From Actinomycetota bacterium (lineage in GTDB: Bacteria > Actinomycetota > CADDZG01 > WHSQ01), in contig JAUJNI010000001.1 of assembly GCA_030446465.1 (NCBI GenBank), positions 729,473-778,694 on the forward strand: a DNA stretch of 49,222 nt, given 5' to 3'. Made by a program: the position numbers and the translations under genes. The notes under the pieces were generated by a model. That model was not told the DNA's origin. It saw only the letters and a list, made by a program, of their open reading frames with translations, and searched no databases. Shown here piece by piece: positions 4,710 through 23,941 of the stretch; positions within the stretch are counted from its first letter, which is position 1, and each line of letters begins with the position of its first letter.

Positions 4710-6995
4710 ATGGCCCCCATGAGGGACGTGAGGGTGATGCGCAAGCGGATCCACGTGTCGGGGATCGTTCAGGGTGTCGGCTTTCGTCCCTTTGTCTACA
4801 GCTTGGCAAACGGCCTGGATCTCAGCGGCATTGTTTTCAACGACACAGCCGGCGTGGTGGTGGAAATAGAAGGCGACGCGCACAAGCTAAGGGCCTTCAG
4901 TGAAGCCCTGGTCCGCGACGCTCCGCCCCTTGCGTCCATCGAGCACATCAGTGAGGAAGAGGTTACGCCTCAGGGCTCCGTCGGTTTTGAGATCAAGAAG
5001 AGTGATAGGACCGGTGCTCGTCGAACGCCCATTTCTGCTGATGTGGCGACCTGCGCTGCGTGTCTGAAAGAGATTTTGGATCCGGGGGACCGGCGCTTTC
5101 GTTATCCCTTCACCAACTGCACCAACTGCGGGCCTCGGTTCACGATCACGACGGCGGTCCCCTATGACCGGCCCAATACGACCATGTCCGAGTTCGCCAT
5201 GTGCTCGCGATGCAAAGCCGAGTACGAGGACGCCCGTGATCGGCGCTTTCACGCACAACCGATCGCTTGTCCTGCATGTGGTCCCTCACTGCGACTCCTT
5301 GGGTCAGACGGGAGCCGGGTCGCTGGGGACCCACTGTCTCGCTCGGTCGAGCTGATCCGCGGCGGCGCCATCGTGGCCGTCAAGGGCCTTGGCGGCTACC
5401 ACCTGGCGTGCGACGCCACTAACGACAGCGCGGTTGCTGCGCTGAGAAGGAGGAAGGGCCGTGACGAGAAGCCTTTTGCGGTAATGGTCCCGACCCTGGA
5501 GTGGACGTGTCGCATCGCGCATACGACTCCAGAGGAGACCTCGCTGATCGCATCGCGGCGCAGACCGATCGTGCTCGTTGCCAAACGAGACGGCAACGGC
5601 GTCGCGGACGCCGTTGCGCCGGGGAACCGCTCCCTCGGCCTAATGCTTCCCTACACGCCCCTTCACTACCTGCTGCTCGCGGAGCTGGGCTCTCCTGTGG
5701 TTCTTACGTCCGGCAATCTGTCAGAAGAACCAATCGCCTACCGGGACGACGAGGCATTAAGGGAGCTCACGGGCGTTGCCGACGCATTCCTGATCCACGA
5801 CCGGCGCATACACATGCGGTGCGACGATTCTGTGGTGAGGGTGGTCGGTGGTCGTGACTACCCACTCCGGCGGGCCCGCGGCTATGCCCCGGAGCCCCTC
5901 GTCGTTGACAGGCCGTTCACCCGGCCGGTTCTGGCCTCGGGCGCCGAGCTAAAGCACACCTTTTGTCTGGGCGCCGATGACAGGGCCATTCTCTCGCATC
6001 ACATCGGCGACCTCGAGAACTGGGAGACGATGTCGTCCTTCGTGGAGGCGGTAGAGCACTTCACTCGTACCTTCGACGTTCGTCCCGAAGTGGTAGCTCA
6101 CGACCTGCACCCCGAGTACCTGTCGACGAAATGGGCCGTGGACCTCGAGGGAGTGGAGCGGATTGGGGTTCAGCATCATCACGCGCACATCGCATCGTGT
6201 CTTGCGGACAACTGGCGCAGCGACCGGGTGATCGGGCTCGCGCTCGACGGCACCGGTTATGGGGACGACGGTGCTTTGTGGGGGTGTGAGGTCCTCGCCG
6301 GCGACCTGCAGGGCTACCGGCGAGCGTTTCACCTGCACTATGTGCCTCTTCCCGGAGGCGCCGAGGCGATCAAGGAGCCCTGGAGGATGGCCGCCGTCTA
6401 CCTGAACGCAGCCTTTGGTGCCGAGGCTGGGAGGCTGGAGACGCACTTCACGAAGCGAAACTGGGAACGCGCTCAACCGATCCTGCACATGGCCGAAAGA
6501 GGGCTTAACTCGCCGCCCACCTCGAGCGCGGGCAGGCTGTTCGATGCGGTAGCGGCGCTGTGTGGGCTTCGAGATCGGGTGGCCTACGAGGGTCAGGCGG
6601 CGGTGGAGCTCGAGCAGGCCGCCGACCCCTCGATCACTCGGACGTATCCGTGCTCGGTCGCAGACGGCGTGATCGACGGCGTGGAGCTGGTTGCCGCGGT
6701 GGTGGACGACCTTTCAACGGGAACGCCGGTGCCTGAGGTCGCTGCCGCCTTTCACGCAAGCCTCGCGCGCAGCCTGGTAACGGCGTGCGAGCTGACCAGG
6801 GAAGAGGAAGGCCTGAACACGGTCGCGTTGTCCGGCGGGACCTTCCAGAACGCTCTGCTACTGCGCTGGGTGCGCGAACACCTCGAGCGCACAGGCTTCG
6901 AAGTGCTCACGCATCACAGGGTTCCTCCCAACGACGGCGGCATCTCGCTGGGCCAGGCAGTCATCGCCAACGCACGTCTTGCCGTTAGTTCATGA
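4710..6995 (+). CDS. hypF: carbamoyltransferase HypF
   Basis: HypF makes the thiocarbamate on HypE that becomes the CN ligands of the [NiFe] centre. All four parts are visible: an acylphosphatase domain (VQGVGFRPFVY, residues ~20-95), two C4 zinc fingers (Cys115/118/137/140 and Cys165/168/187/190), a YrdC-like nucleotide domain (~205-390) and a Kae1-like carbamoyltransferase domain (~405-760) with the metal-binding HHHAH at 489-493. The length, 761 aa, is normal. In-frame ATGs at 4719 and 4737 are alternative starts, and 4737 has GAGGG just upstream. It opens the hydrogenase island and converges on the CooC-type gene, overlapping it by about 11 bases. Confidence 0.97.
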   Translation: MAPMRDVRVMRKRIHVSGIVQGVGFRPFVYSLANGLDLSGIVFNDTAGVVVEIEGDAHKLRAFSEALVRDAPPLASIEHISEEEVTPQGSVGFEIKKSDRTGARRTPISADVATCAACLKEILDPGDRRFRYPFTNCTNCGPRFTITTAVPYDRPNTTMSEFAMCSRCKAEYEDARDRRFHAQPIACPACGPSLRLLGSDGSRVAGDPLSRSVELIRGGAIVAVKGLGGYHLACDATNDSAVAALRRRKGRDEKPFAVMVPTLEWTCRIAHTTPEETSLIASRRRPIVLVAKRDGNGVADAVAPGNRSLGLMLPYTPLHYLLLAELGSPVVLTSGNLSEEPIAYRDDEALRELTGVADAFLIHDRRIHMRCDDSVVRVVGGRDYPLRRARGYAPEPLVVDRPFTRPVLASGAELKHTFCLGADDRAILSHHIGDLENWETMSSFVEAVEHFTRTFDVRPEVVAHDLHPEYLSTKWAVDLEGVERIGVQHHHAHIASCLADNWRSDRVIGLALDGTGYGDDGALWGCEVLAGDLQGYRRAFHLHYVPLPGGAEAIKEPWRMAAVYLNAAFGAEAGRLETHFTKRNWERAQPILHMAERGLNSPPTSSAGRLFDAVAALCGLRDRVAYEGQAAVELEQAADPSITRTYPCSVADGVIDGVELVAAVVDDLSTGTPVPEVAAAFHASLARSLVTACELTREEEGLNTVALSGGTFQNALLLRWVREHLERTGFEVLTHHRVPPNDGGISLGQAVIANARLAVSS

Positions 6996-7707
6996 GCCTT
7001 CGGCCAAGCTCCACTATTGCCAGGACTCCTGGTGCCTGCGGGTCGACGTCGATTGGTGCCAGGCCCTGCCGGTCTGCGCTGACGATCGCCGGCTCCTCTG
7101 GGACCAAAACCAGGTCGTAGTGCGGCAGCGCAGATTTGATAATGCTCTCGTCCTCTTCACTTCGAATTCGATTGGCGACCACGGTGACCGTCGAGCGTTC
7201 ACTCGCTATGGAAGCCGCGCGCCGGGCCACCTCTATCGATTTCGAGGTTGGCTCCGTGACTACGAGGACACGATCTGCTTGATCGGGTTGAAGTCGCAGT
7301 AGCGTCCCAACTCCCGCCTCGAGATCGCATATCAGCAGATCCCGCTTCCCTCTAAGCTCCCCGAGCAACTGCTCGGGCGAAACTCCACATCAGGGTCAGC
7401 CAGGATCGATTTGATCGATCCTGGAACAAACGACGAGCCGGATGCCCTCGGGGGCGTTGGCTCCGAAGGTCTGGATTAGCCCGTCTGTCGTGGGCTGATG
7501 CTCTACTTCACCGGTGTCCAGCCCCTGGCGGACCGTCACCAGGATGTCGGTTTCTTCGGGACCGAGACCCAGAGAGACGCCAAGCATGGGGTTTGTGTCG
7601 GCGTCGAGGGCGAGGACATGGCGCCCCGATCTGGCGAGCGCGCGTGCAAGCGTCCCGGCAATGGTGGTCTTGCCCGAGCCGCCCTTTCCGGCGACGACGA
7701 TATTCAT
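6985..7707 (-). CDS. CooC-type P-loop ATPase with Sec-Pro-Sec in place of Cys-X-Cys (probable selenoprotein)
   Basis: This is a MinD/CooC-family nickel-insertion-type ATPase. It has the deviant Walker A KGGSGKT (residues 7-13), switch region ALDADTNPMLGVSLGLG, Walker B-like LLICDLEAGV, and C-terminal VLVVTEPTSKSIEVARR and VVANRIRSEED. The frame is open from ATG 7707 to TGA 6985 except for two TGA codons three bases apart (7398-7396 and 7392-7390). These give G-U-P-U-C-G at residues 104-107. CooC proteins have a Cys-X-Cys at about residues 112-114 that binds metal at the dimer interface, and the two UGAs fall on those Cys. No frameshift is needed. A perfect 6-bp hairpin follows. The start overlaps the upstream gene's stop (ATGA). 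I infer a selenocysteine Ni chaperone for the hydrogenase. Confidence 0.75.
7360..7377 (-). promoter_or_regulatory. candidate SECIS hairpin after the double UGA
   Basis: In the mRNA sense, CCCGAG (7377-7372), loop CAGUUG and CUCGGG (7365-7360) form a perfect 6-bp stem. It starts 12 bases after the second UGA, so the GU of the loop lies 21-22 bases past that UGA. This is close to the GU in the apical loop of the E. coli fdhF SECIS. It lies inside the coding region, as bacterial SECIS elements do. Function is inferred from position and shape. Confidence 0.5.
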
Positions 7708-8555
7708 CTCTTCCCCGCGCCCGCCCTGAGAACGAGGCGGCGCAGCCTCAGCCCGTCCCAGTGACCGAACTCATGCTCGGCGTCCCACTGCATCATCCAT
7801 GTGACGGTTCCGTAGTTTTCGACCAGTCGACGCGCGGACCGCGAGAAGGCAGCGCTTGGATCTTCTTTGCCGAAGACACCCAGCGCATATACCTCTCGAG
7901 AATTCGCTACGCCGAAGGTGATTCCCAGCACATCTTCATTATCTACAATGTCGTCTTGAAGCCGTCGAAGACTTCGCAAGACTCTTATCAAATCGGTCAT
8001 GCGATCGACTTCCATCCGGACCATGACTCCCGTCCCCCCCGTCAGTCGCGTGCGGGCGCGTCGCGTCAGGGGTGCGTGGTCTAGCGAGGGCATGCCTCCA
8101 GGTCCGATCGCACCCAGTAAGTCCGGAATCCCTCCCAAAGCGGTACGACACAGAGGGTCGGAGGCCCGTTCTGCCGAGGCCCCGATCTGACTACTGTCGT
8201 CTGCAAGACTCACTCCGCTCCAGTCACCCGCTTCTTGGTTGGTCGGGGCCCAGCGCATCAGCCAGAAGGACTCGAACCAGTGAGAGAAGTTCCACATGAG
8301 GGCCTGGTGGGCTCCGGATCTCATGAACTCCTGCATCTGGTGTCTGCTGCTCCAGATGCTTATGGTCCAAAACTCGCGCGGAGCGGTGACGATGCTCGCA
8401 AATCGTACGCAGCCTTCGGTGTCTTCAAGTTGCCGTTGGATCCTGAGCGAAGCCTGCATCATCGAGGGGAAGAATCGGATACTTTTCAGGCGGGCTCGGG
8501 TCGTAACCGCCAGCTTTACCTTCGTCGGAGACGTCGTTCGTGCAGGGCCGACCAC
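7704..8555 (-). CDS. protein with a CrtA/DUF3291-like alpha+beta barrel domain
   Basis: The N-terminal ~95 residues (VKLAVTTRARLKSIRFFPSM, EGCVRFASIVTAPREFWTISIW, AHQALMWNFSHWFESFWLMRW) resemble the spheroidene-monooxygenase/DUF3291 branch of the dimeric alpha+beta barrel superfamily, some members of which bind heme or act as monooxygenases. The remaining ~185 residues (MVRMEVDRMTDLIRVL, YALGVFGKEDPSAAFSRS, TVTWMMQWDAEHEFGHWDG) may be a second similar module but are not recognised. The gene lies between two P-loop ATPase genes in a three-gene minus-strand operon, 9 bases after one and overlapping the next by 4. This suggests a role in cofactor or metal handling for the hydrogenase. Confidence 0.7.
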   Translation of the reverse strand: MVGPARTTSPTKVKLAVTTRARLKSIRFFPSMMQASLRIQRQLEDTEGCVRFASIVTAPREFWTISIWSSRHQMQEFMRSGAHQALMWNFSHWFESFWLMRWAPTNQEAGDWSGVSLADDSSQIGASAERASDPLCRTALGGIPDLLGAIGPGGMPSLDHAPLTRRARTRLTGGTGVMVRMEVDRMTDLIRVLRSLRRLQDDIVDNEDVLGITFGVANSREVYALGVFGKEDPSAAFSRSARRLVENYGTVTWMMQWDAEHEFGHWDGLRLRRLVLRAGAGKR

Positions 8556-8564
8556 GAAGTCACT

Positions 8565-9317
8565 CTACGCCCGCATGAGTTGGTCGACCAATCGGGCGAT
8601 GGCAGTCACCGCGGGGCAAGCGGGTGTCTCATCTATCACCGCTGCGCCCCGGCGATCGGCTTCGATCACCGCGGGGTCCGCTGGAACGGCACCGAAGGCT
8701 GCTGTCCCGAGCCGGTCTTCGATCAACTTCACATCAGAGGAGCCGTGCACCTTGTTTGCTACAAAGAGGGCAACGGTGCCGGCTCGAGACGTCGCTATGC
8801 GTGCGATTCTTCTCGCCGACAAGATGGACTTCCAGGTCGGCTCCACCACCACCAGAAAGGTGTCGGCGTAAGGTGCCCAGTCGAACGCCGCCTGCCGGGG
8901 GCCGGCGGGCAGATCGCCGACCACATTCCACTCTCGAAGTACCCCTGTCGTGGCCAGGCGGTGGGTTACCTGAAAGAAGGCGTTGAGCGAGCCCATGATG
9001 GGCCCCAGCCCCTCCGGGGTCGCCTTGCCGAATTGAAGCAGTCGGACCCCATCCGGCCCTACCTTTGCGAAACGCTGAACCGCCCGCGCTGCTCCAATGC
9101 CCTTCCTCAGTCGCCAGCGCCCGTCGTCGGATTGTTCCGCCGCACCTTCGAGAAAGGGTTCGGTAAGAGGGCCAAGCCCCAGGCTGATCGCAAGGCCGGG
9201 CATGGGATCTGAGTCGAGAGCCAGCACCTTTCCGCCGCGCCTTGCGAGGAGGCGAGCCGCGGTTCCGGAGATCACAGACTTGCCGGCGCCTCCCTTTCCC
9301 ACGATGGCGATCCGCAC
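8565..9317 (-). CDS. MinD/CooC-like P-loop ATPase without the Cys-X-Cys motif
   Basis: This is a deviant Walker A ATPase (RIAIVGKGGAGKS), with LALDSDPMPGLAISLGLGPL, then WNVVGDLPAGPRQAAFDWAPYADTFLVVVEPTWKS and VALFVANKV. It belongs to the same family as the two UGA-containing ATPases of this window. At the equivalent metal-site position, however, it reads GKATPEGLG, with neither Cys nor UGA, so it should not bind metal in the same way. It could be a partner subunit or a regulator. I chose GTG 9317, which puts the P-loop near residue 10 as in relatives. ATG 9377 (20 residues longer) is possible. It is the first gene of the three-gene minus operon and diverges from hypC. Confidence 0.85.
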   Translation of the reverse strand: MRIAIVGKGGAGKSVISGTAARLLARRGGKVLALDSDPMPGLAISLGLGPLTEPFLEGAAEQSDDGRWRLRKGIGAARAVQRFAKVGPDGVRLLQFGKATPEGLGPIMGSLNAFFQVTHRLATTGVLREWNVVGDLPAGPRQAAFDWAPYADTFLVVVEPTWKSILSARRIARIATSRAGTVALFVANKVHGSSDVKLIEDRLGTAAFGAVPADPAVIEADRRGAAVIDETPACPAVTAIARLVDQLMRA

Positions 9318-9400
9318 GGGACCAACCCTAAGGGCCGCCGATCGCACCGGATGCGCGATGATGAGTGTTCCAGACATATACCGGCCGAAGGGAAGCGCTC

Positions 9401-9679
9401 ATGTGCCTTGGCATCCCGGGGCAAGTGGTTGAGATCATGGACGAGGCAGCTCACATTGCGAAGGTGGATGTCGGCGGAGTGAGGCGAAACGTCAACATCG
9501 GTCTGCTGGCGGGAACCAGTGACGCGGTCGACCTTGGTGACTGGGTCCTCATCCACGTGGGATTTGCCCTCTCGAAGATCGACGAGGAAGAGGCGGCCTC
9601 AACGATCAAGTTCCTCGAGGGCCTTGGTGAGGCTTACGAGGACGAGCTCGAGCAACTGAAGGGCAGCGACATCGCATGA
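9401..9679 (+). CDS. hypC: hydrogenase assembly chaperone HypC
   Basis: HypC forms a complex with HypD to carry Fe(CN)2CO and delivers it to the hydrogenase large subunit. The start at 9401 gives the obligatory M-C-L-G-I-P-G N-terminus, with Cys2 as the functional ligand, followed by VDVGGVRRNVNIGLL and GDWVLIHVGFALSKIDEEEA. GAAGGGA lies 6 bases upstream. It has 92 residues. Its stop overlaps the next start (ATGA). It opens the hypC-hypC2-hypD-hypE run. Confidence 0.96.
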   Translation: MCLGIPGQVVEIMDEAAHIAKVDVGGVRRNVNIGLLAGTSDAVDLGDWVLIHVGFALSKIDEEEAASTIKFLEGLGEAYEDELEQLKGSDIA

Positions 9680-9924
9680 ACCACGCTTGGGTGGGTCCCC
9701 CTCCTCACGAGGGGTCGTGCGCGGTTGTCGATGGGTGCCTTACCTGCGGGGATGTCGCGGTTCCCGTCAAGGTGCTGGAGGCGGCAGAGCCGGATGCGGT
9801 CTGCGAAGACGAGCACGGCCGGCGGGGCACCGTCGGGGTTGAGCTGGTGTCCCCGGTGAGGGCCGGCGATCGCTTGCTCGTCCACGGAGGAGTCGCTATC
9901 TCACGACTGGAGCGATCCGCATGA
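9676..9924 (+). CDS. second HypC/HupF-like chaperone (variant)
   Basis: This 82-residue protein has the small beta-barrel pattern of HypC (VPVKVLEAAEPDAVCEDEHGRRGTV, then VRAGDRLLVHGGVAISRL). It lacks the Met-Cys N-terminus and instead carries a C-L-T-C pair at about residues 21-24 (CLTCGDVAVPV). Such HupF-like partners often stand beside hypC in actinobacterial hydrogenase clusters. A role as a specialised chaperone, or as a redox-sensitive partner of HypD, is inference. It overlaps hypC by 4 bases and hypD by 4 bases, so translation is likely coupled. Confidence 0.88.
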   Translation: MNHAWVGPPPHEGSCAVVDGCLTCGDVAVPVKVLEAAEPDAVCEDEHGRRGTVGVELVSPVRAGDRLLVHGGVAISRLERSA

Positions 9925-11042
9925 GGTACGTCGATGAGTTTCGGGACGCCAACCTGGCGCGAACGTTGTCAACCCAGATTGCTGCGGTTGCGGAACCGGG
10001 TCGCCACTACAAGGTCATGGAAGTGTGCGGTGGGCACACGCACACCATCTACAAGCACGGGATCGAGGACCACCTGCCCGAGACGATCGAGTTGGTCCAC
10101 GGGCCGGGATGTCCGGTCTGCGTCATCCCTATGGGCCGCGTCGACGACGGCATCTCCATAGCCAGGCGTCCGGGCGTCATCTTCACTTGCTTCGGGGACA
10201 TGATGCGTGTGCCCGGCGGTGACGGCAGCCTCCTCGACGCCAAGGCGCAGGGTGCCGACGTTCGGTTCGTCTATTCACCGCTCGACGCCCTGAAGGTCGC
10301 TCGGTTGAACCCCGAGCGCGAGGTCGTCTTCTATGCCATCGGCTTCGAGACCACCGCCCCTTCCACGGCGTTGACGTTGATGCGAGCAAAAGCCGAGGGA
10401 CTAACCAACTTCTCGGTCATGTGCAATCACGTGACGATCGTCCCGCCGCTGAAGGCACTGCTCGAATCGCCGGACCTACGACTGGACGCGTTCATCGGTC
10501 CGGGCCACGTCTCGACTGTGATTGGTTGCCGCCCCTACGAGTTCATCCCGGCCGACTACGGCCAGCCGGTGGTCGTCGCAGGCTTCGAGCCGCTCGACCT
10601 CTTGCAGGCCGTCTACATGATCATGCTGCAGTTGGCGGAGGGACGGAGCGAGATCGAAAACCAATACGGGCGAGTGGTCCCCTGGGAAGGGAACCTCAGG
10701 GCGCTCGAGGTCCTTCAGGAGGTCTTCGAGCTTCGGCCTTATTTCGAATGGAGGGGCCTGGGCTTCATTTCGCAGAGCGCCCTCAAGCTGTCCGACGCCT
10801 ACCGTGACTTCGACGCCGAGCTTCGCTTCGACGTCCCCGGTGTGCGTGTCGCCGATCCCAAGGCGTGTCAGTGCGGTGAGGTTCTAAAGGGCGTCATCAA
10901 ACCGTGGGAATGCAAAGTGTTCGGGACGGCGTGCACTCCGGAGACACCCATCGGTACCTGCATGGTGTCCTCCGAGGGGGCCTGCGCGGCCTACTACAAC
11001 TTCGGACGGTTTGCCAGGTCGACAGCCCGCGCCGGCAGCTAG
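9921..11042 (+). CDS. hypD: hydrogenase formation protein HypD
   Basis: HypD is the [4Fe-4S] scaffold on which the Fe(CN)2CO unit is assembled together with HypC and HypE. The diagnostic Cys motifs are present: EVCGGHTH, HGPGCPVCV, and the C-terminal cluster ligands around ACQCGEVLKG, KPWECKVFGTACTPETPIGTCMVSSEGACAAYY. The length of 373 aa is normal. It starts at ATG 9921, overlapping the previous stop, and is followed 17 bases later by hypE. Confidence 0.97.
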   Translation: MRYVDEFRDANLARTLSTQIAAVAEPGRHYKVMEVCGGHTHTIYKHGIEDHLPETIELVHGPGCPVCVIPMGRVDDGISIARRPGVIFTCFGDMMRVPGGDGSLLDAKAQGADVRFVYSPLDALKVARLNPEREVVFYAIGFETTAPSTALTLMRAKAEGLTNFSVMCNHVTIVPPLKALLESPDLRLDAFIGPGHVSTVIGCRPYEFIPADYGQPVVVAGFEPLDLLQAVYMIMLQLAEGRSEIENQYGRVVPWEGNLRALEVLQEVFELRPYFEWRGLGFISQSALKLSDAYRDFDAELRFDVPGVRVADPKACQCGEVLKGVIKPWECKVFGTACTPETPIGTCMVSSEGACAAYYNFGRFARSTARAGS

Positions 11043-11059
11043 TCCCAGGTGAGGGACCG

Positions 11060-12136
11060 ATGGCGGATCTAGAGGACGAGGTCCTCGCGCGCATCGAACG
11101 GCAGCGCAAGCTTCGTCCCCGCTGGCGTGACGACCGCATCACGATGACGCATGGAGCTGGAGGCAAGGCGACGCATACCCTCGTCGCAGGCCTTTTTGAG
11201 CCCGCCTTCTCCAACCAAGCCCTAGCCCAACTAACCGATGCGGCATTCCTTGACATCGATGGCGCTCGCATGGCCATGACGACCGACGCGTTCGTCGTCA
11301 AGCCTCTGCGCTTCCCGGGGGGTTCCATCGGTGAGCTCGCCGTCAACGGGACCGTCAATGACCTGTCTGTGTCTGGAGCGCGGCCGGTTGCTTTATCTGC
11401 CGCGTTCATCATTGAAGAGGGCCTGGATGGGGACGTCTTGAGGGCCGAGGTCGACGCGATGGCGGAAGCAGCGTCGAGGGCCGATGTCTCGATCGTGACC
11501 GGTGACACCAAGGTCGTCGAGCGAGGGAAGGCCGACGGCATGTACATAGTGACTGCCGGAATGGGACTGAGGGTTCATCAGGAGCCGCTGTCCGGCGCCT
11601 CGATCATGCCGGGCGACCGAATCTTGTGCTCCGGTCCAATAGGCGACCACGGGACGGCCATCATGCTGGCGCGCGGGGAGCTCGAGCTGGACGCCGACGT
11701 CCAGTCCGATACCGCTCCCCTGTGGCCGCTCGCTCGGGCCCTCATGGCGGCGGTCGGTTCATCGCTACGTGTCATGCGGGATCCGACGCGAGGGGGTGTC
11801 GCCACCGTTCTCAACGAGCTGGCGTCTGATGCGAACGTCGGAGTGGTGCTCGACGAAGCTGCGGTCCCAGTGCGCCCGCCGGTTAAGGGGGCCTGCGAGA
11901 TCCTCGGCATAGATCCAATGTACGTAGCCAATGAGGGAAGGCTCCTCGCAGTGGTAGCCCCAGAGGCCGCCGCACATGCCCTCGAGGCCATGCGCAACGT
12001 TCCGGGAGGTGACGGGGCCGCGCTGGTAGGCGAGGTCGCAGCTCAACCGGCGGGCATGGTCCTGGTCAGGACCGGTTTCGGAGGCACGAGGATCATGGAC
12101 ATGCTCATCGGCGATCCGCTGCCCCGTATCTGCTAG
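11060..12136 (+). CDS. hypE: hydrogenase maturation protein HypE
   Basis: HypE uses ATP to dehydrate the carbamoyl group, received from HypF on its C-terminal Cys, into a thiocyanate that donates CN to HypD. The protein has the PurM/SelD fold with MTHGAGGKATH, MTTDAFVVKPLRFPGG, VNGTVNDLSVSGA, GDTKVVERG and RDPTRGGVATVLNE. It ends in the mandatory P-R-I-C, with the acceptor Cys as last residue. It has 358 aa from ATG 11060 (upstream GAGGGA). It resembles SelD in fold, but the PRIC tail makes it HypE and not a selenophosphate synthetase. Confidence 0.97.
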   Translation: MADLEDEVLARIERQRKLRPRWRDDRITMTHGAGGKATHTLVAGLFEPAFSNQALAQLTDAAFLDIDGARMAMTTDAFVVKPLRFPGGSIGELAVNGTVNDLSVSGARPVALSAAFIIEEGLDGDVLRAEVDAMAEAASRADVSIVTGDTKVVERGKADGMYIVTAGMGLRVHQEPLSGASIMPGDRILCSGPIGDHGTAIMLARGELELDADVQSDTAPLWPLARALMAAVGSSLRVMRDPTRGGVATVLNELASDANVGVVLDEAAVPVRPPVKGACEILGIDPMYVANEGRLLAVVAPEAAAHALEAMRNVPGGDGAALVGEVAAQPAGMVLVRTGFGGTRIMDMLIGDPLPRIC

Positions 12137-12143
12137 CGACTCC

Positions 12144-13382
12144 ATGAGCGCGCCGGCCGACCCAGTTGCAGCGGGCTATCGATTACGAGAGATGGTCGTT
12201 CGCGACTTCTTCACGGCGGAGGCCCCCAGGGTGTCGCGGCTTTGCCACGCCATGGCGCAGAGATTCTTCAGCGGCGGAAGATTGATCGCGTTTGGCGCCG
12301 GAGCGGCGGTGACGGACGCCCAACACGTCTCCGTGGAGTTCGTCCACCCGGTGATCGTGGGGAAGCGAGCGCTCCCTGCCGTCGCTCTCGTCAACGACGT
12401 CGCTTCTACGCTCGGGCTGGCATACAGACACGGTGCTGATCACTTTGCGCGCCAACTCGAAGTGATGGGACGTCCGGACGACATCGCACTGGGAATGTTG
12501 CACGGCCCCCAAGATGCAGTCGAATCTGTGGCGGCGGGGCTCAAGCAGGCGGCTTCCAGCGGAATGCTTCCGATTTGGCTGGGGACGGTGGGCGGGCGTG
12601 ACGACGGGGGAGCGGAGTACCGCTTCGAGGTGGATTGCGAGGATCCCTTTGTCGTTCAGGAGGTGCACGAAACCCTCTATCACGTTCTGTGGGAGCTAGT
12701 GCATGTCTTCTTCGAACACAAAGGGCTGCTTTCCAACCGCCGCCCTCAGGCTCGGACGCACGACAGCGGCCGGTCGAGCTTTCTCTATCCGTTTCTGGCC
12801 CAGTCGGAAGCGGACCTCGACGGTGTCCTTGCGGAAGTCAACGGTTCCGTGCTCCAGAAAGCCGAGGACGTCATTGCCATGCGCCGGGCTTCCATGGACC
12901 CGAGCGGTCTTGCTGAGACGGCTCGACTGATCTCGCAGCGGGTGCACAGAGGAGGTCAGGTGCTTGTGTTCGGAAACGGGGGTTCTGCCACCGACGCACA
13001 AGATCTCGTTGCCGACCTGGTGGCTCCGGCTGAAGACATGAGGCCGGTGCCCGCGCTCTCGCTCACAAACGACGCGGCGGTCATGACCGCGATCGGCAAC
13101 GACGTGGGCTTCGAGAACGTCTTCGCCCGCCAGGTGATTGCTCACGGTACCAACGCCGACGTGGCGATCGCCATTTCAACGAGCGGCGGGTCCCGCAACG
13201 TCGTGGCCGCGCTCCAGGAGGCAAAGAGACGCGACATGCTAACCGTCGGGTTTGGAGGCTACGGAGGAGGTCGCCTGTCGACCGTATGTGACAGGGTCCA
13301 TGTGGTTCAAGGGGACTACATCCCTCGCATCCAGGAGGCCCAGGCCACGCAATACCACCTGCTGCGCAGCCTCATTCGCTAG
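12144..13382 (+). CDS. tandem double-SIS-domain protein (phosphoheptose-isomerase-like)
   Basis: Two sugar-isomerase (SIS) domains are joined in one chain. The first is at residues ~30-190, with GGRLIAFGAGAAVTDAQHVSVEFVHP. The second is at ~240-410, with GGQVLVFGNGGSATDAQDLVADLV, PALSLTNDAAVMTAIGNDVGFENVF and AISTSGGSRNVVAAL. The second keeps the GmhA-like G-N-G-G-S-A-x-D-A loop and the STSG phosphosugar-binding loop. In the first these are altered, so it may be structural. GmhA isomerises sedoheptulose 7-phosphate. Here the gene sits 8 bases after hypE, and I infer an accessory role, possibly in hydrogenase ligand supply, that the sequence alone does not prove. Confidence 0.85.
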   Translation: MSAPADPVAAGYRLREMVVRDFFTAEAPRVSRLCHAMAQRFFSGGRLIAFGAGAAVTDAQHVSVEFVHPVIVGKRALPAVALVNDVASTLGLAYRHGADHFARQLEVMGRPDDIALGMLHGPQDAVESVAAGLKQAASSGMLPIWLGTVGGRDDGGAEYRFEVDCEDPFVVQEVHETLYHVLWELVHVFFEHKGLLSNRRPQARTHDSGRSSFLYPFLAQSEADLDGVLAEVNGSVLQKAEDVIAMRRASMDPSGLAETARLISQRVHRGGQVLVFGNGGSATDAQDLVADLVAPAEDMRPVPALSLTNDAAVMTAIGNDVGFENVFARQVIAHGTNADVAIAISTSGGSRNVVAALQEAKRRDMLTVGFGGYGGGRLSTVCDRVHVVQGDYIPRIQEAQATQYHLLRSLIR

Positions 13383-14856: not shown

Positions 14857-16271
14857 ATGGCAACCAGCGTTGCGCAGAAGACGCCGGCCCAGCGTCTTCT
14901 CGATGTTCTCGGCCCCGTGGATCGGTGGCACGACCACGAGGAGATCGGGGACTTCGGGATGCCCACTCGAGCCTTCATGGAAGACATGGTCGAGCCCCTC
15001 GCCAAGGCGGGTCTCGGCAGTCGCCTCGGACCGCTCGAGAAGGTCCACGCCTTTTGGTTCGCCGGGATGAGCTGCGACGGCTGCTCGGTCGCGGTCACCG
15101 GTGCTCAAGCCCCGTCCGTCGAAAGCCTCTTGATGGGAGCGCACCCCGGGCTTCCGCGGGTGGTTCTTCATCACCCGGTTTTGAACGTCGAGTCGGGTCC
15201 TAACTATCTGCGCGCCCACGAGAACGCCCTGAAGGGTGAGCTTGGAGCGCCCTACGTCATCATCCTCGAGGGATCGATCAGCGATGAGACGATGGCGATG
15301 GCCGGGACCGAGCGCGACAACTACGGCTACTGGTCCGCCCAGGGCGAAGAGCCGTGGGGCCGCAACGGCGAGAACCGCATCGTGTCGACCGACGAATGGA
15401 TCGCTCGGCTCGCCCCCAATGCGGCGGCTTCCATAGCGATCGGCACCTGCGCCACGTGGGGCGGCATACCCTCGGCGGACGGCAACCCCACCGGCGCCAT
15501 GAGTCTGATGGACTTTCTCGGAAAGGACTACAGGAGCGTCTTCGGCGTCCCGGTGGTGAACGTCCCCGGCTGCCCGCCCATCGGCGACAACTTCAACGAG
15601 ACCGTTGCGGCGATCCTCTACTTCCTGCAGGGCTTCGGCCCTCTGCCTGAGTTCGACGAGCTCGGCAGACCCGCGTGGCTGTTCGGAGAGACGGTGCATC
15701 GACACTGCGTGCGCGGCGCCTATTACGAGGAGGGGACGTACGCGGAGACGTTCGGCGACCCAGAGTGCCTCGTCGAGATCGGATGCTGGGGGCCCGTCGT
15801 CAACTGCAACATCACCTCGCGCGGCGCAATCAACCACGTCGGAGGCTGCATGAACTCCGGGGGCGCTTGCATCGGATGCACGATGCCCGGCTTCCCCGAC
15901 AAGTTCACGCCGTTCTACAAGAGGCCGCCGGGATCCTTGGTCTCGACTGCTGCAGCTCGCCTTCTCGGGAGCTTCGTCAAGCCGCTGCGTCGGTACACAA
16001 GCGCTCACCTGAACCGAGAGGTGCGCTGGGATCTCCACAACGAGGTTCCTAGTGGATGGGCTCGCGAGCAGTCAGAGCCCAGCATGGTTCAGGGGCGGGG
16101 CACAAGTTCTACGACATGATGCGGCGCTCGACCGACACGGGCAAGGGCAAGGGCGGAGTCTGGGGCAAGCGCGACGAATGGACCTATGAGCGAGAGCCCG
16201 CAATGGAAGAGGAGCTGGAGGCCACAGCCAGTGAAGGCGAGGTCTTCGAACAAAGCAATAGGGAGGCCTGA
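14857..16271 (+). CDS. [NiFe]-hydrogenase small (electron-transfer) subunit, group-1h-like, frameshifted near its C-terminus
   Basis: This subunit carries three Fe-S clusters. Visible ligand motifs include SCDGCSV (proximal cluster, residues ~70), GTCATWGG, NVPGCPPIGDN, ETVHRHCVRG, EIGCWGPVVNC, GGCMNSGGACIGCTMPGFPD. In the best-known group 1h enzymes the proximal motif is CDGD, with Asp as ligand; here it is CDGC. GGAGG precedes ATG 14857. As read, the frame ends at 16119. Adding one G to the GGGG run at 16097-16100 joins it to GHKFYDMMRRSTDTGKGKGG and the rest, ending at TGA 16269-16271, 2 bases before the large subunit. I take that as the real C-terminus (~471 aa). No Tat signal or TM anchor is seen, so the enzyme is probably cytoplasm-facing. 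Confidence 0.93.
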
Positions 16272-16273
16272 GC

Positions 16274-18175
16274 ATGTGCTTCAAGAATCTGCCCGTCGAC
16301 TTCGATGAGGCGGGCGGCGCGCGCCTGAGAGAAGGCATCCCTGATCCTTACTCCGTAGCCACTGCGATACCTCAGGTCGAGCAAACCGAAGAGGAGCGCG
16401 AGGCCCAGATCCAAAGGCTCATGGCCCAGAACGGTCACATCAAGGACCTGAACATGGATCCCGTGACCAGAGTCGCCGGCGCGCTCGCGGTGCATGTGAC
16501 GGCGGATCTCAAAGAGGGCGTCTATCTCGACGCCCACTCGCAGGCGACGCTGTTTCGCGGCTACGAGGTCATCCTCATGGGGCGGGACCCTCGCGATGCA
16601 ATCTTCGTCTCTTCCCGTGCGTGTGGAGTGTGCGGCGGTGTCCACTCTCATGCCTCCGCCTATGCGACCGAGATGGCGATGGGCCTCGCTCCTCCACCGT
16701 TCGGCACCGTCGTCCGCAACATGGGTGAGGCCGCCGAGATGGGTTACGACAACCCGCTCCACCTCTATCTTCTGGCAGGACCGGATTACTCCGAAGCAGT
16801 CGTAAGAGCGGTCAATCCCGAGCTCTGGCCCAAGGCCGAGAAGTGGAGCTGTGCGGGTCAGGAACACCACGGTTTCAAGACCATGGCCGACCTCATGACT
16901 GCGCTCAACCCACTGACCGGTGCTCTCTACAGGGAAGGGCTGGAGTTCACCCGGCTATCGCGCGAGATGTGCGTGATCCTGTGGGGGAAGTACCCCCACC
17001 CTCAGACGGTCATCCCCGGCGGCATGTCGACCACGGTGACGCCGCAGACCCTGAACGAGTACCACTCGAAGCTGGGGAGGATCTTCGACTACGCCCAGCG
17101 GTTGATGGCCGTGTGGGACGACATCACCGAGTTCTTCTATGACGCCGACGAGCGCTACAAGGAGGTCGGTGCTCGGCCGCTCAGCGTCATCGAATCCGGT
17201 TACTGGGACGACCCGTACGCGTACGACGCGACCTACGAGAACTCGGACGAGTGGGGCCAACGCAGATGGTCGACCCCGGGCGTGGTCATTGACGGTGAGC
17301 TCGTGACCACGCGGCCCACGCAGATCAACATGGGATGGGAGGAGTTCGTGGAGCATTCCTTCTACGAGGAATGGTCTGGGGATCGCTACGCGACCGATCC
17401 TCTCGGGAACCCCATCAGCCCCTATCACTCGTGGAACAAGCGGACGCTTCCCAAGCCCGAGGGCCGCAACTGGAAAGAGAAGTACACCTGGGCCACCGCG
17501 CCGAGATGGGACCGTCAAGTTGTGGAGGCGGGAGCTTACGCACGTCTGTTGACGACGGCGCTCGCGCAGAAGCAGCCCCCCAACGACTTCATCGAAGCGA
17601 CTGGCCACAGCATCAAGATGCGGATTCCCAAAGGCCTGACGCCGGAGGCCGAGGTCGAGTGGCATATCCCCGAGCAGTGGAACTGCTTCGAACGCAACCG
17701 GGGGCGCGCCTATCACTACGTGATGTCACAGCTGGTCGGGCTCGCCAGCCTCCTGGAGGCCTACAAGCTGACCAAGCAAGGCGACACGCGCATTGCCGCA
17801 ATGAGCCCCTCCGAGCTCGAGCGAAACATCCCCAAGGACGAGCGACGGGGCCTCGGGTGGTGGGGCGCGGGTCGCGGGTGGCTGACCCACTACCTCGTCA
17901 TGGACCGGGGCAAGATCGTGAACTATCAGATCACCACCCCCTCGACAATCAATGCGTCACCACGCGATCCGTGGGGCCAGCCGGGCCCTTACGAGCAGGC
18001 GGTCATGAGGACGCCGATCATCGAGGATGTGTCGGACCCGTCGAAGTTCACCGGCATAGACATGCTGAGGGCGATTCGGAGCTTCGACCCCTGCATGCCG
18101 TGCACGACCCACATCCACACGGGCAAGGGGACCGTGGTGCGGGAGGTCAACACCTGCTCCTGCGGGGTCGACTGA
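16274..18175 (+). CDS. [NiFe]-hydrogenase large (catalytic) subunit, group-1h-like
   Basis: This subunit binds the Ni-Fe(CN)2CO centre through four Cys. The N-terminal pair is in R-A-C-G-V-C-G-G-V-H (Cys117/120) and the C-terminal pair in D-P-C-M-P-C-T-T-H (Cys607/610). Neither pair contains a UGA. DPVTRVAGAL and FRGYEVILMGRDPRDAIFVSSR match the high-affinity atmospheric-type (group 1h) enzymes. After His613, about 20 residues (IHTGKGTVVREVNTCSCGVD) form the extension removed by a maturation protease, and two proteases are nearby. It has 633 aa from ATG 16274, 2 bases after the small-subunit gene. Precise subgroup assignment would need a tree. Confidence 0.95.
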   Translation: MCFKNLPVDFDEAGGARLREGIPDPYSVATAIPQVEQTEEEREAQIQRLMAQNGHIKDLNMDPVTRVAGALAVHVTADLKEGVYLDAHSQATLFRGYEVILMGRDPRDAIFVSSRACGVCGGVHSHASAYATEMAMGLAPPPFGTVVRNMGEAAEMGYDNPLHLYLLAGPDYSEAVVRAVNPELWPKAEKWSCAGQEHHGFKTMADLMTALNPLTGALYREGLEFTRLSREMCVILWGKYPHPQTVIPGGMSTTVTPQTLNEYHSKLGRIFDYAQRLMAVWDDITEFFYDADERYKEVGARPLSVIESGYWDDPYAYDATYENSDEWGQRRWSTPGVVIDGELVTTRPTQINMGWEEFVEHSFYEEWSGDRYATDPLGNPISPYHSWNKRTLPKPEGRNWKEKYTWATAPRWDRQVVEAGAYARLLTTALAQKQPPNDFIEATGHSIKMRIPKGLTPEAEVEWHIPEQWNCFERNRGRAYHYVMSQLVGLASLLEAYKLTKQGDTRIAAMSPSELERNIPKDERRGLGWWGAGRGWLTHYLVMDRGKIVNYQITTPSTINASPRDPWGQPGPYEQAVMRTPIIEDVSDPSKFTGIDMLRAIRSFDPCMPCTTHIHTGKGTVVREVNTCSCGVD

Positions 18176-19663: not shown

Positions 19664-20883
19664 GCGGAACCCTCTCCAAGGTCGCCGGCGATGCGGTTGA
19701 AGGCATCTCGCAGCCTCATCCATTGCGGGAGGTGGAAGCGGGCCATAGCGCTCGAGACATCCGACCGGAAGCGGTCCTGGTCGCTTGGCTCCATCGTCAT
19801 CAGGGCCTCGATGGTGCTGCGGATCAGCGAGTCGGCCCCCTCGGGCGGCAGCTCCAGAAGTGCGCCGACCCAGGCCTCGGCGCGGTCCTCGCCCTGGTCG
19901 AAGCGCTCGAGCGCTCCCTCGATCCAGGCCTTCGCCTCGGCCCTCTGCTCGTCCGATCCCGCATCCACCCACCGGACCACCTCTTCACGAACGATCGCCG
20001 GCCACTGCGCGGGTTGTTGTTGATCGAGCACGTAGTGGAGGTCCCCCGGTTCGTCGCCAAGTCTTTCGAGGACCCCGGCGGCCTGCTCCACCACCGGATC
20101 GGCGGCAGCCCGGATTGCGAGAGCCTGGCGAGCCGCGCTGCGGGCGGGCGCCAGTTCGCCGGCGCGCTCGTGAGCCAGCGCGAGATTCGACTTGGCCATG
20201 GCGAAGGCCTCCGGCCGAACGCTCATAGGGCTGGCCCCTGCGGCGGCCGTAAAAGCCTCGATCGCCAGTTCCAACCGAGCTGCCGCCAGGTGAGTGAGGC
20301 CAAGCGTGTTCCAGGCTGCGCCCAGCCCGATGAAGTCGTTGGTTTCATCCGCGATGTCCACAGCTTGTCGCAGGACGGCCGTGGCCTCGTCAAGGCGTCC
20401 GAGCAGCAGAAGGGTCGCCCCGAGCTCCCGCTGAACTGCCGCAGCTTGCGCCGGCGCCACTTTCCGTTGCAGCAAGTCACGGGCCCGTTCAAACGAACCA
20501 ATGGCGCCCTCGTAGTCGCCGAGGTCCCTCTGCACCAGGCCCAGGTTGAAGCGGCTGGCGCCGTGCTCTAGCCGTAGTGCCGATCGCTCGAGCGCCTCCG
20601 CCGCCGTCGTGAAGGCCTCTTCCGCTTCTTGGAGCCGTCCGGTAAGGCGCAGAACGGCCCCGAGCGCGTTGTTTGCCTTTCCGTGGTCGACCTCGTGGTC
20701 GTGTGAATGGAACAGGAGCGCGGCTCGGGTCAGCGCGCGCTCGGCGTCGTCCAGTCGACCAGCGTCGGCAAGCGCGACGCCGAAGTGAAACTGCGCTCGA
20801 GCATGGAGCACCGGATAGCGGCTCTTCGGGTATCTCGTCACCCGATCTTCGAGCTCATCGACTGCTTTGCTGCTGTCCTCCAC
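19654..20883 (-). CDS. tetratricopeptide-repeat (TPR) protein
   Basis: A 409-residue soluble protein has about six TPR-like helix pairs between residues ~20 and 265 (for example ARAQFHFGVALADAGRLDDAERAL, ASRFNLGLVQRDLGDYEGAIGSFERA, AWNTLGLTHLAAARLELAIEAF, AKSNLALAHERAGELAPARSAA). A C-terminal helical region of ~140 residues follows, rich in Trp and acidic residues. TPR proteins mediate protein-protein contacts; here it may assemble or stabilise the hydrogenase or its accessory proteins. It diverges from the protease gene at 20904 with only 20 bases between them and is followed by the ligase-like gene with a 10-base overlap. Confidence 0.85.
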   Translation of the reverse strand: MEDSSKAVDELEDRVTRYPKSRYPVLHARAQFHFGVALADAGRLDDAERALTRAALLFHSHDHEVDHGKANNALGAVLRLTGRLQEAEEAFTTAAEALERSALRLEHGASRFNLGLVQRDLGDYEGAIGSFERARDLLQRKVAPAQAAAVQRELGATLLLLGRLDEATAVLRQAVDIADETNDFIGLGAAWNTLGLTHLAAARLELAIEAFTAAAGASPMSVRPEAFAMAKSNLALAHERAGELAPARSAARQALAIRAAADPVVEQAAGVLERLGDEPGDLHYVLDQQQPAQWPAIVREEVVRWVDAGSDEQRAEAKAWIEGALERFDQGEDRAEAWVGALLELPPEGADSLIRSTIEALMTMEPSDQDRFRSDVSSAMARFHLPQWMRLRDAFNRIAGDLGEGSAWM

Positions 20884-20903
20884 CGCGTGCCTATCCTACG
20901 AGC

Positions 20904-21407
20904 GTGAAGGTGCTGGTAGCAGGCGTGGGCAACCTCCTGCGCGGCGACGACGGGTTCGGCGTGGTGGTGGCGAACCGCCTGATGGAAGAGACACTGCCCG
21001 CCGGGGTCGGGGTGATGGATGTAGGCATAGGAGGGATCCACCTGGTCCAGCAGCTCCTCGATCCTATCGACGCGCTCGTCGTCATCGACGCGGTCGACCT
21101 CGGCCGCCCGCCGGGAACGGTCCTTGTGATTCGACCAGAGGTTCTGGACGTCGCGGGGATGTCATCCGACGAACGCCGGGACGTGTTGGCCGACATGCAC
21201 TACTCGACCCCCGAGCGCGCCTTCATGCTGGCCCGCGCTCTCGATGCGCTTCCAGGCTCCCTGTGGATCGTCGGATGCCAGCCCGAGGATGCAGAGCGGC
21301 TGGGTGAGGGACTGTCCCCTCGGGTTGCCGGCGCGATCGACCCCGCGATCAGGGAGGTGCGGCGAACCGTGTCGGAGCTCGGCGTCGCCTGGGATGGCGG
21401 AAGCTAA
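20904..21407 (+). CDS. hydrogenase maturation protease (HyaD/HupD family)
   Basis: This nickel-dependent endopeptidase trims the C-terminal extension of the large subunit after the metal centre is complete. The N-terminus V-L-V-A-G-V-G-N-L-L-R-G-D-D-G-F-G carries the conserved GN.L.GDDGFG motif with the first acidic metal ligand. ALVVIDAVDLGRPPG holds the second (Asp), and MHYSTPERAFMLARAL the His region. It has 167 aa from GTG 20904. A -10-like TATCCT (20892-20897) lies 6 bases before the start, so the mRNA may be leaderless. It is the orthodox protease of the island. Confidence 0.93.
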   Translation: MKVLVAGVGNLLRGDDGFGVVVANRLMEETLPAGVGVMDVGIGGIHLVQQLLDPIDALVVIDAVDLGRPPGTVLVIRPEVLDVAGMSSDERRDVLADMHYSTPERAFMLARALDALPGSLWIVGCQPEDAERLGEGLSPRVAGAIDPAIREVRRTVSELGVAWDGGS

Positions 21408-22192: not shown

Positions 22193-22708
22193 CTAGCGAG
22201 GTGGCCGCTCGATTTGCAGGAGCGTCTGTCCCGGCGGGGGATGCGCGGGTGCGTCGTCCTCTTCGACCTCGATCGCGACGAAGGCCGGAAAGTTGTCGCG
22301 CAGCGCTTCCTCGATGCCCTCTCTCAACGTCACCGCCGAGGCGGTGCAGCCCGAGCATGCGCCGGACATCTTGAGTCGGACCATCCCTCCCTCGGCGTTC
22401 AGGACCTCCACGCTTCCGCCGTGTGAGTGGATGTAGGGGCGGATGCTTTCGAGCGCTGCGTCGGCAGCGGCCTTCTCGTCCACGCCGACGCCATAGGCGT
22501 CCAGCATCCAAGCAATCGCGGGATCGTCGCGAAGTCTCGAGAGCATCTCGGGGCCAACCGCTTGGCCTAGACGGGTGAGCGCAAGCCGGTGAGTGGCGTC
22601 GATCCCGTCGAGCAGCTCGAAGACGCGCTCTTTCACCGGATCGTCGAGCGCTTCTATATCCTCGAGGACCTCCTCGAGCCTGGCGAGGATCTCTTCCAAA
22701 CTCCGCAT
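22193..22708 (-). CDS. NifU C-terminal-domain Fe-S scaffold protein
   Basis: The C-terminal half (residues ~75-155) is the NifU/Nfu domain that carries Fe-S clusters: ALESIRPYIHSHGGSVEVLNAEGGMVRLKMSGACSGCTAS, with the C-S-G-C ligand pair, then REGIEEALRDNFPAFVAIEVEE. The N-terminal ~70 residues are helical and not recognised. NifU-type genes recur in group 1h hydrogenase clusters, where the small subunit needs three clusters. It diverges from the 22762 ATPase gene across 53 bases. Confidence 0.92.
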   Translation of the reverse strand: MRSLEEILARLEEVLEDIEALDDPVKERVFELLDGIDATHRLALTRLGQAVGPEMLSRLRDDPAIAWMLDAYGVGVDEKAAADAALESIRPYIHSHGGSVEVLNAEGGMVRLKMSGACSGCTASAVTLREGIEEALRDNFPAFVAIEVEEDDAPAHPPPGQTLLQIERPPR

Positions 22709-22761: not shown

Positions 22762-23544
22762 ATGAAGCTCTCGGTTTCTGGAAAAGGCGGCTCGGGCAAG
22801 ACGACGATCTCGGGGACCCTCGCTCGACTCGCGGGCAGGCAGGGGCGTCAAGTAATCGCCATCGACGCCGACACGAACCCCAACTTGGCGCTGACTCTGG
22901 GGCTCGGTGCCGCGCAATTCGAAGACACGCCGCCGCTTCCTCACGGACTCATGCAGCACAAGCAGGTTGATGGCGAGACGGTTCTCAGCCTGTCCAGGCC
23001 CGTGGCCGAAGTGACCGCCCAGTTCGGCAAGCAGTGTCCCGACGACGTGCGTCTCATCATGGTGGGAAGCGTCAGGGGGGCGGCCAGCGGCTGAATGTGC
23101 TCCTCTCACGCCACGGTCCGTGGCCTGCTGCACGAGCTACCAGCCGACGATTCGGTAGTCATAGTGGACGCCGAGGCGTCACCGGAGCATCTGAGCCGAG
23201 CCACCATCGAGGCCGTCGACCTGCAGCTCGTGGTCGCGGAGCCATACTTCAAGTCGCTTGAGACTGCCCGTCGGTATTCGAAGCTTGGTAGGGATCTCGG
23301 CATCCCAAAGGTCGTGATCGTGGCCAACAAGGTCCGAAACGAGGAAGATCAGGCTGCCATTGAAGGGTTTTGTGAATCGCACGACATGCAGCTCTTTGCG
23401 GTGATCCCCTTCGACAGCATGCTCGCCGGCGCCGAGCGGGCCGGCGTTGCTCCGCTCGACTATGACCCCCAGGCAGCGTCGATGGCCGCCATAGTGGCGA
23501 TGTACGACCGTATCGTTCACGAGCCGATTGCCTCGAGGGCCTGA
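22762..23544 (+). CDS. CooC-type P-loop ATPase with Sec-Met-Cys in place of Cys-X-Cys (probable selenoprotein)
   Basis: This is a CooC/MinD-family ATPase. It has SGKGGSGKTT (residues 6-15), IAIDADTNPNLALTLGLG, Walker B VVIVDAEASPEHLSR, LVVAEPYFKSLETARRY and VVIVANKVRNEED. The frame runs from ATG 22762 to TGA 23542-23544 with a single internal TGA at 23092-23094. It reads A-S-G-U-M-C-S-S-H-A-T-V-R-G-L-L. In CooC relatives this segment is G-C-x-C with metal-binding Cys at residues ~112 and 114; here U111 and C113. The frame and homology continue unchanged on both sides, and a GCCAC-GGUCC-GUGGC hairpin follows. The other reading, two separate proteins, would split the fold between P-loop and Walker B. 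The gene is followed 1 base later by a Cys/His-rich regulator gene. Nickel delivery to the hydrogenase is inferred. Confidence 0.8.
23110..23124 (+). promoter_or_regulatory. candidate SECIS hairpin after the UGA of the 22762 ATPase
   Basis: GCCAC (23110-23114), loop GGUCC and GUGGC (23120-23124) form a perfect 5-bp stem. The loop starts 21 bases after the UGA. The apical GGUC closely resembles the AGGUCU loop of the E. coli fdhF SECIS, which lies about 19 bases after its UGA. This is the most SECIS-like of the four hairpins. Confidence 0.55.
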
Positions 23545-23545
23545 C

Positions 23546-23941
23546 ATGGAGAAGCTGCATGCTCCCAAGTCGGAGGCCTTGCGAGCTCTCTTCTGGCGTG
23601 ACGAGATCCTGCAGGTGATGTTCTGGATCGAGGGTGAGGGATTCGGCGACGCCGCCAGTCCTGAGCTGTTGGAGCGTTTCCTCGGGGTAGAGGCAAGCGT
23701 CGGTCTCCGTTATCTCGACCGGCTCGTTGACGAGGAGCTTCTTCGAAAGACGGGCGGCTGCCTCTACGAGCTCACGGACGAAGGGCGCCGGCAGGGCGGC
23801 CGCGTCTTTGCCGACGAGTTCGCGGATCTAACCAAGCCAGGGCACGGTGAATGCGGGCCGGACTGCTGGTGTCACGCTTCTCCTGAGGAAGCCGAGGCCT
23901 GTGCCGAGGAGCGGTTCGGCCACCAGCACCACAACCACTGA
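23546..23941 (+). CDS. winged-helix regulator with a Cys/His-rich C-terminus
   Basis: Residues ~5-90 form a winged helix (LRALFWRDEILQVMFWIEGEGFG, PELLERFLGVEASVGLRYLDRLVDEELLRK, YELTDEGRRQGG). The last ~33 residues hold C-G-P-D-C-W-C-H, another Cys and a terminal H-Q-H-H-N-H, nine or more potential metal ligands. A nickel- or zinc-sensing repressor, or a metal-storage tail, is therefore likely. The gene begins one base after the CooC-type ATPase stop and precedes a PadR-type gene by 3 bases, forming a three-gene unit. Start ATG 23546 was chosen because it leaves no overlap. Confidence 0.82.
   Translation: MEKLHAPKSEALRALFWRDEILQVMFWIEGEGFGDAASPELLERFLGVEASVGLRYLDRLVDEELLRKTGGCLYELTDEGRRQGGRVFADEFADLTKPGHGECGPDCWCHASPEEAEACAEERFGHQHHNH

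Follow-up and report, generated by a model that had tools for sequence, protein, structure and literature searches.

Genes at the locus

The window, by which we mean the whole 49,222-nucleotide stretch of DNA that was analysed, encodes three paralogous CooC-type proteins (CooC1, CooC2 and CooC3) together with a [NiFe]-hydrogenase and a set of its maturation proteins (Table 1). The solved structure most similar to the hydrogenase large subunit was that of the actinobacterial-type enzyme of R. eutropha (473 bits, vs 187 bits for the next structure), which we take to be a group 1h enzyme; the gene of the large subunit contains no in-frame TGA. CooC1, the winged-helix-like protein, HypC, the SIS-domain protein, HypD and HypE were found encoded together across Actinomycetota and partly in Gemmatimonadaceae, and the winged-helix-like gene adjoined CooC1 in all sufficiently long loci except one (L038). 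NifU-domain proteins of the HhyE type are needed for H2 uptake in Mycobacterium (PMC6883350). The SIS-domain protein consists of two SIS-like halves and is not known to have a role in hydrogenase maturation. It should also be noted that a gene at 7704-8555 (−), between CooC2 and CooC3, encodes a 283-residue protein with weak ABM/DUF3291 similarity, homologs of which lie near hyp genes elsewhere (G011, L049).

Table 1 Positions of the features of the window; all selenocysteine (Sec, U) residues are predicted.
Feature	Position	Strand	Basis or remark
HypF	4710..6995	+	
CooC2, paralog with two predicted Sec (U104-P-U106)	6985..7707	−	translation; orthologs
CooC2 SECIS-like hairpin CCCGAGC-AGUU-GCUCGGG	7360..7377	−	covariation; bSECIS model
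CooC2 second UGA (predicted Sec106)	7390..7392	−	translation
CooC2 first UGA (predicted Sec104)	7396..7398	−	translation
CooC3, third paralog, no Cys-x-Cys	8565..9377	−	translation; synteny (adjoins CooC2 where both seen)
HypC	9401..9679	+	
Second HypC-like protein	9676..9924	+	
HypD	9921..11042	+	
HypE	10904..12136	+	match from residue 78 of the ORF onward
SIS-domain protein	12144..13382	+	near hypD in nearly all loci
[NiFe]-hydrogenase small subunit	14857..16119	+	
[NiFe]-hydrogenase large subunit	16274..18175	+	nearest solved structure 5aa5 (R. eutropha actinobacterial-type)
HycI-type hydrogenase maturation protease	20673..21407	+	
NifU-domain protein (HhyE-like)	22193..22708	−	
CooC1, CooC-type P-loop ATPase, 260 aa, predicted Sec at residue 111 (U-M-C)	22762..23544	+	translation; 3kje match; Foldseek
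CooC1 UGA (predicted Sec111), equivalent to Cys112 of C. hydrogenoformans CooC1	23092..23094	+	translation and alignment
CooC1 Cys113 codon, second member of the metal pair	23098..23100	+	invariant Cys/Sec column
CooC1 SECIS-like hairpin GCCACG-GUC-CGUGGC	23110..23124	+	folding; bSECIS model (PMC13188914)
Winged-helix-like protein, conserved HGEC..DCxCH..C and His-rich tail	23546..23941	+	next gene after CooC1

A CooC-type ATPase with a UGA at its inferred metal site

The CooC1 reading frame runs from ATG 22762 to TGA 23542-23544 and contains TGA ATG TGC at 23092-23100; its translation begins MKLSVSGKGGSGKTT and is crossed by this single internal TGA. A phmmer search matched it to CooC1 of C. 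hydrogenoformans (3kje, E 4e−29) with no gaps around the motif, where ASG-U-M-C stands opposite GSQ-C-Y-C and U111/C113 correspond to C112/C114. Both columns of this pair were invariably Cys or Sec in the 16 sequences aligned, and the deviant Walker A motif GKGGxGKTT is present. An AlphaFold model, for which the TGA was entered as Cys, had a mean pLDDT of 88, with values below 50 solely at residues 107-109, and its top PDB match in Foldseek was again CooC1 of C. hydrogenoformans. Walker A motif, closest structure and ligand columns agree, and CooC1 belongs to the CooC family by descent and fold. In the C. hydrogenoformans protein, Cys112 and Cys114 bind zinc at the dimer interface and nickel competes there (PMC6006190). 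The initial annotation, made from the sequence alone, had placed a TGA at the first Cys of the Cys-x-Cys motif and had taken residues 111 and 113 for the metal-binding pair; the former held by translation and alignment and the latter by alignment, metal binding itself being inferred.

Paralogs with one, two or no predicted selenocysteines

In CooC2 the codons TGA CCC TGA (U-P-U) fall on the two metal-pair columns of CooC1. We surveyed 397 genomes sampled from the order of an Acidimicrobiales-type genome (G033), 33 of which had a match, and read 30 orthologs: 24 were U-x-U, 5 were C-x-U and 1 was C-P-C, so that 29/30 were Sec-bearing. Within the host's family, CooC2 was U-P-U in one genome (G011) and C-P-U in two (G003 and G008). 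CooC3 has no Cys-x-Cys yet neighbours CooC2, and could conceivably be a heterodimer partner. A further CooC1-like paralog (L027, in G011) reads U-A-C and has its own hairpin, AUGCCAC-CGUGC-GUGGCAU; its Acidimicrobiia-type counterparts read C-T-C.

Predicted selenocysteine and cysteine interchange under purifying selection

Six CooC1 genes have a TGA at the column of residue 111; they come from three genera of Actinomycetota, and from Gemmatimonadaceae and Verrucomicrobia. Orthologs in three other genomes of the host's order (two genera) share the same-codon TGA at 64-67% identity, and a scan of named genomes found U-M-C in one Gemmatimonadaceae and one Verrucomicrobia genome, and C-L-C in one Gemmatimonadaceae and ten Actinomycetota genomes (mostly Acidimicrobiia). 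TGA and Cys interchange at one column in three phyla and three paralog groups. On a maximum-likelihood tree built from 37 CooC-type proteins, 6 switches between Sec and the other states are required, and well-supported branches force at least 4 of them. It should be noted that the related loci were picked by similarity; since many of them are closely related, locus counts are not counts of independent events.

The middle residue of the motif is always Met (ATG, 23095-23097) in the U-M-C forms and Leu in the C-L-C forms, which remains unexplained.

For three pairs of CooC1 genes, dN/dS before and after the TGA was 0.26 and 0.25, 0.20 and 0.13, and 0.14 and 0.22; purifying selection is similar upstream and downstream of the codon. 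A decayed gene or a sequencing error would be suggested by an in-frame stop within a draft assembly, but this explanation is all but excluded: the TGA recurs in independent assemblies that represent three phyla, 24 CooC2 orthologs share both TGA positions, and the genes are under purifying selection. The initial annotation had argued against sequencing error from the occurrence of a TGA in a diverged paralog, and this argument held, with CooC2 carrying two.

Alternatively, the locus could hold two genes, one for a 110-residue protein that stops at the TGA, the other for a protein beginning at ATG 23095. In favour of this, an ATG directly follows the TGA in all U-M-C forms, for which we have no explanation. 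However, neither the U-A-C form (L027) nor the U-x-U forms carry an ATG behind the TGA, no ribosome site was found at a constant distance before the ATG, dN/dS is similar on either side, and the split would separate the P-loop from the remainder of the ATPase. The Cys homologs of CooC1 are one unbroken ORF, with Leu where the ATG codon stands, which also argues against two genes. We consider this alternative very unlikely; a real stop followed by a separate start with its own conserved ribosome site, which the initial annotation had named as a possible refutation, was not borne out among the relatives examined.

SECIS-like hairpins and selenocysteine machinery

The CooC1 hairpin has 6 bp and the loop GUC, starting 15 nt after the TGA with its loop 21 nt after it, and a folding energy of −8.0 kcal/mol for the core and −9.4 kcal/mol for 27 nt. 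As a yardstick we used the published bacterial SECIS (bSECIS) model (PMC13188914), which was met by 40/40 TGA forms, 2/13 Cys forms and 6.5% of the 1306 TGAs in the window. A hairpin 15 bases after the TGA, with a loop like that of the E. coli fdhF SECIS, had been claimed in the initial annotation; its position held, while the likeness to fdhF is backed only so far as the hairpin meets the general bacterial model. An Rfam search at this site gave no match. Against shuffled sequences the z-scores were −0.9 to −1.9, which is weak alone, and the case for Sec therefore rests on comparison. From codon usage, the chance of the hairpin given the peptide is about 1% per independent lineage; the hairpin sequence GCCACGGTCCGTGGC does not differ between the host lineage and Gemmatimonadaceae, the proteins of which are only about 50% identical, and in Verrucomicrobia an A-U pair is replaced by G-C.

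For CooC2, the hairpin GAGC-AGUU-GCUC was unchanged in 32/32 distinct TGA forms. The underlying EQLL codons (GAG CAG TTG CTC) were invariant in all TGA forms, even though only 8% of the leucines in these genes are encoded by TTG. Covariation was seen at two variable pairs, GC/CG and CG/UA, with 14 double-change cells (0/500 shuffles). The loop lies 19 nt after the single TGA of C-x-U forms and 25 and 19 nt after the two TGAs of U-x-U forms. The sole Cys-only CooC2 ortholog (L078) has the codons CAA CTG, with a hairpin pair broken by a C-A mismatch. The hairpin was retained where TGA stands but had disappeared from most genes with Cys codons, a pattern suggesting that decoding depends on it.

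One Gemmatimonadaceae C-L-C gene (L036, 10001-10786) has a 7-bp hairpin in the same place whose loop does not satisfy the SECIS rule; it may be left over from a recent loss of Sec.

We searched for the Sec machinery in the host genome only and found, on the same contig as the window (C4), tRNA-Sec (C4:59733, 83 bits), SelB (C4:42112, 329 bits) and SelA (C4:45092, 519 bits). The second refutation foreseen by the initial annotation, a genome without Sec genes, was therefore not borne out either. The UGA could instead be read as Cys or another residue, through a changed code or Cys on tRNA-Sec. Homologs have Cys at that column, and a low level of sulfur incorporation through the Sec pathway is possible. 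However, the host has selA, selB and tRNA-Sec, and the hairpin is retained alongside TGA; we regard this reading as very improbable. Sec in a CooC-type ATPase was supported by every comparative test run. We conclude that the UGA at 23092-23094 is almost certainly decoded as Sec, via the hairpin at 23110-23124 and the host SelA, SelB and tRNA-Sec, as shown by comparison and without a selenium measurement.

A hydrogenase maturation cluster without detected HypA and HypB

HypA and HypB normally insert nickel (PMC12134894). Profile searches of the host draft genome (95.7% complete) did not find HypA or HypB (TIGR00073), the only weak match to the latter being MeaB, and gave no match for a Ni-CO dehydrogenase (CooS, TIGR01702). 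With the same profiles, HypA and HypB were both undetected in 15 of 18 cluster-bearing genomes, including the host; the exceptions were G025 and G034, with HypA and HypB, and G026, with HypA. It should be noted that these absences depend on draft genomes and profile cut-offs. As the host lacks a detectable Ni-CO dehydrogenase, "CooC" is the name of a fold and probably not of a client. This absence, the setting in a maturation cluster for a [NiFe]-hydrogenase in which hypA/hypB were not detected, and the two predicted Sec of CooC2 go beyond the initial annotation.

Proposed function

The maturation cluster is present and HypA and HypB were undetected; most simply, the nickel step would be filled by the CooC-type ATPases. 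The seleno-CooC ATPases are likely to load nickel into the adjacent [NiFe]-hydrogenase, replacing HypA/HypB, although both nickel and the client are inferred and there is no nickel measurement. From its fold and alignment we infer that CooC1 is an ATP-dependent dimer whose two chains each contribute Sec111 and Cys113 to a four-ligand metal site at the interface. In our proposed mechanism CooC1 would bind Ni(II) along with the di-Sec CooC2, the Cys-less CooC3 and the Cys/His-rich neighbour, and when ATP binds or is hydrolysed the nickel would pass into the actinobacterial-type [NiFe]-hydrogenase of the same cluster. We can only guess that the selenolates may tune nickel affinity, or let the site recover after oxidation, or both. 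The Cys/His-rich winged-helix-like protein is a possible nickel-binding partner, for which there are no binding data. Against a nickel role, CooC of R. rubrum showed no tight nickel binding, and a client-folding ATPase has been put forward as an alternative model (PMC6006190).

A rival explanation accepts the selenoprotein but has the Sec/Cys pair do redox chemistry or hold an iron-sulfur cluster, as an ATP-driven reductase or thiol switch in hydrogenase assembly. NifH-type reductases also match the fold, most selenoproteins are believed to be redox proteins (PMC13188914) and a NifU-domain gene is adjacent. However, one C-x-C supplies both ligands here, which is the arrangement of CooC, while in NifH the two Cys lie far apart; the nifH model scored 20.7 bits against a cut-off of 394; and the nickel step is the sole maturation step here without its usual proteins. 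We therefore consider the redox explanation unlikely. Sec decoding, an ATPase dimer and nickel delivery to the hydrogenase are, taken as a whole, likely the best explanation. A bolder reading, for which we see as much reason to doubt as to believe, is that in several bacterial phyla HypA/HypB have given way, for high-affinity hydrogenases, to a selenium-dependent nickel-insertion system in which a His-rich partner works with mono-Sec and di-Sec CooC and a Cys-less ATPase, and selenolates hold nickel in transit.

Significance and comparison with known systems

Neither a CooC/MinD-type ATPase nor a U-x-U motif appears among the 119 prokaryotic selenoprotein families inventoried in May 2026 (PMC13188914), no NCBIfam model scored above cut-off for these seleno-ATPases, and the open-access literature searched contained no Sec-containing CooC, ParA-type or hydrogenase-maturation ATPase; subscription journals, preprints and unlisted candidates from a groundwater survey cited in that inventory were outside the scope of this search. 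Ordinary gene callers truncate proteins at TGA, so that the system is easily missed. If our reading is correct, this would be a new selenoprotein family, with Sec in the metal-transfer site of an ATPase and not in a thioredoxin-like redox site, and a conserved di-selenocysteine U-x-U motif would join the known selenoproteins. It would also tie selenium to hydrogen scavenging by aerobic soil bacteria and account for the way in which many genomes could make a [NiFe]-hydrogenase without HypA and HypB. Sec/Cys variants occur naturally at each ligand, so that the role of selenium can be tested directly.

The recoding and the ATPase family are known parts; their combination is new, and the client is likely new as well. 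CooC1 resembles the CO dehydrogenase nickel-insertion ATPase of C. hydrogenoformans (3kje/3kji) in fold, Walker A motif and C-x-C ligand columns, but differs in the predicted Sec at one or both ligands, the three paralogs, the [NiFe]-hydrogenase neighbour and a host without detected Ni-CO dehydrogenase. As with HypB (with HypA), NTP-driven nickel insertion is proposed beside hypCDEF, and the His-rich partner recalls the His-rich nickel domains of some HypB; however, the seleno-ATPases belong to the MinD/CooC NTPase family and not to CobW/HypB. The CobW-related selenoprotein of cobalamin synthesis (NF041053, PMC13188914) is likewise a metal-related NTPase and predicted selenoprotein, but of a different family, with U-x-x-C and one Sec. 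While the large subunit has its closest solved relative in the group 1h [NiFe]-hydrogenase of R. eutropha, the maturation genes here are of CooC types, without detected hypAB. Finally, Sec and nickel meet in hydrogen metabolism here as they do in the [NiFeSe]-hydrogenases, with the difference that those carry Sec in the enzyme itself, whereas here it is predicted in the presumed maturation ATPases.
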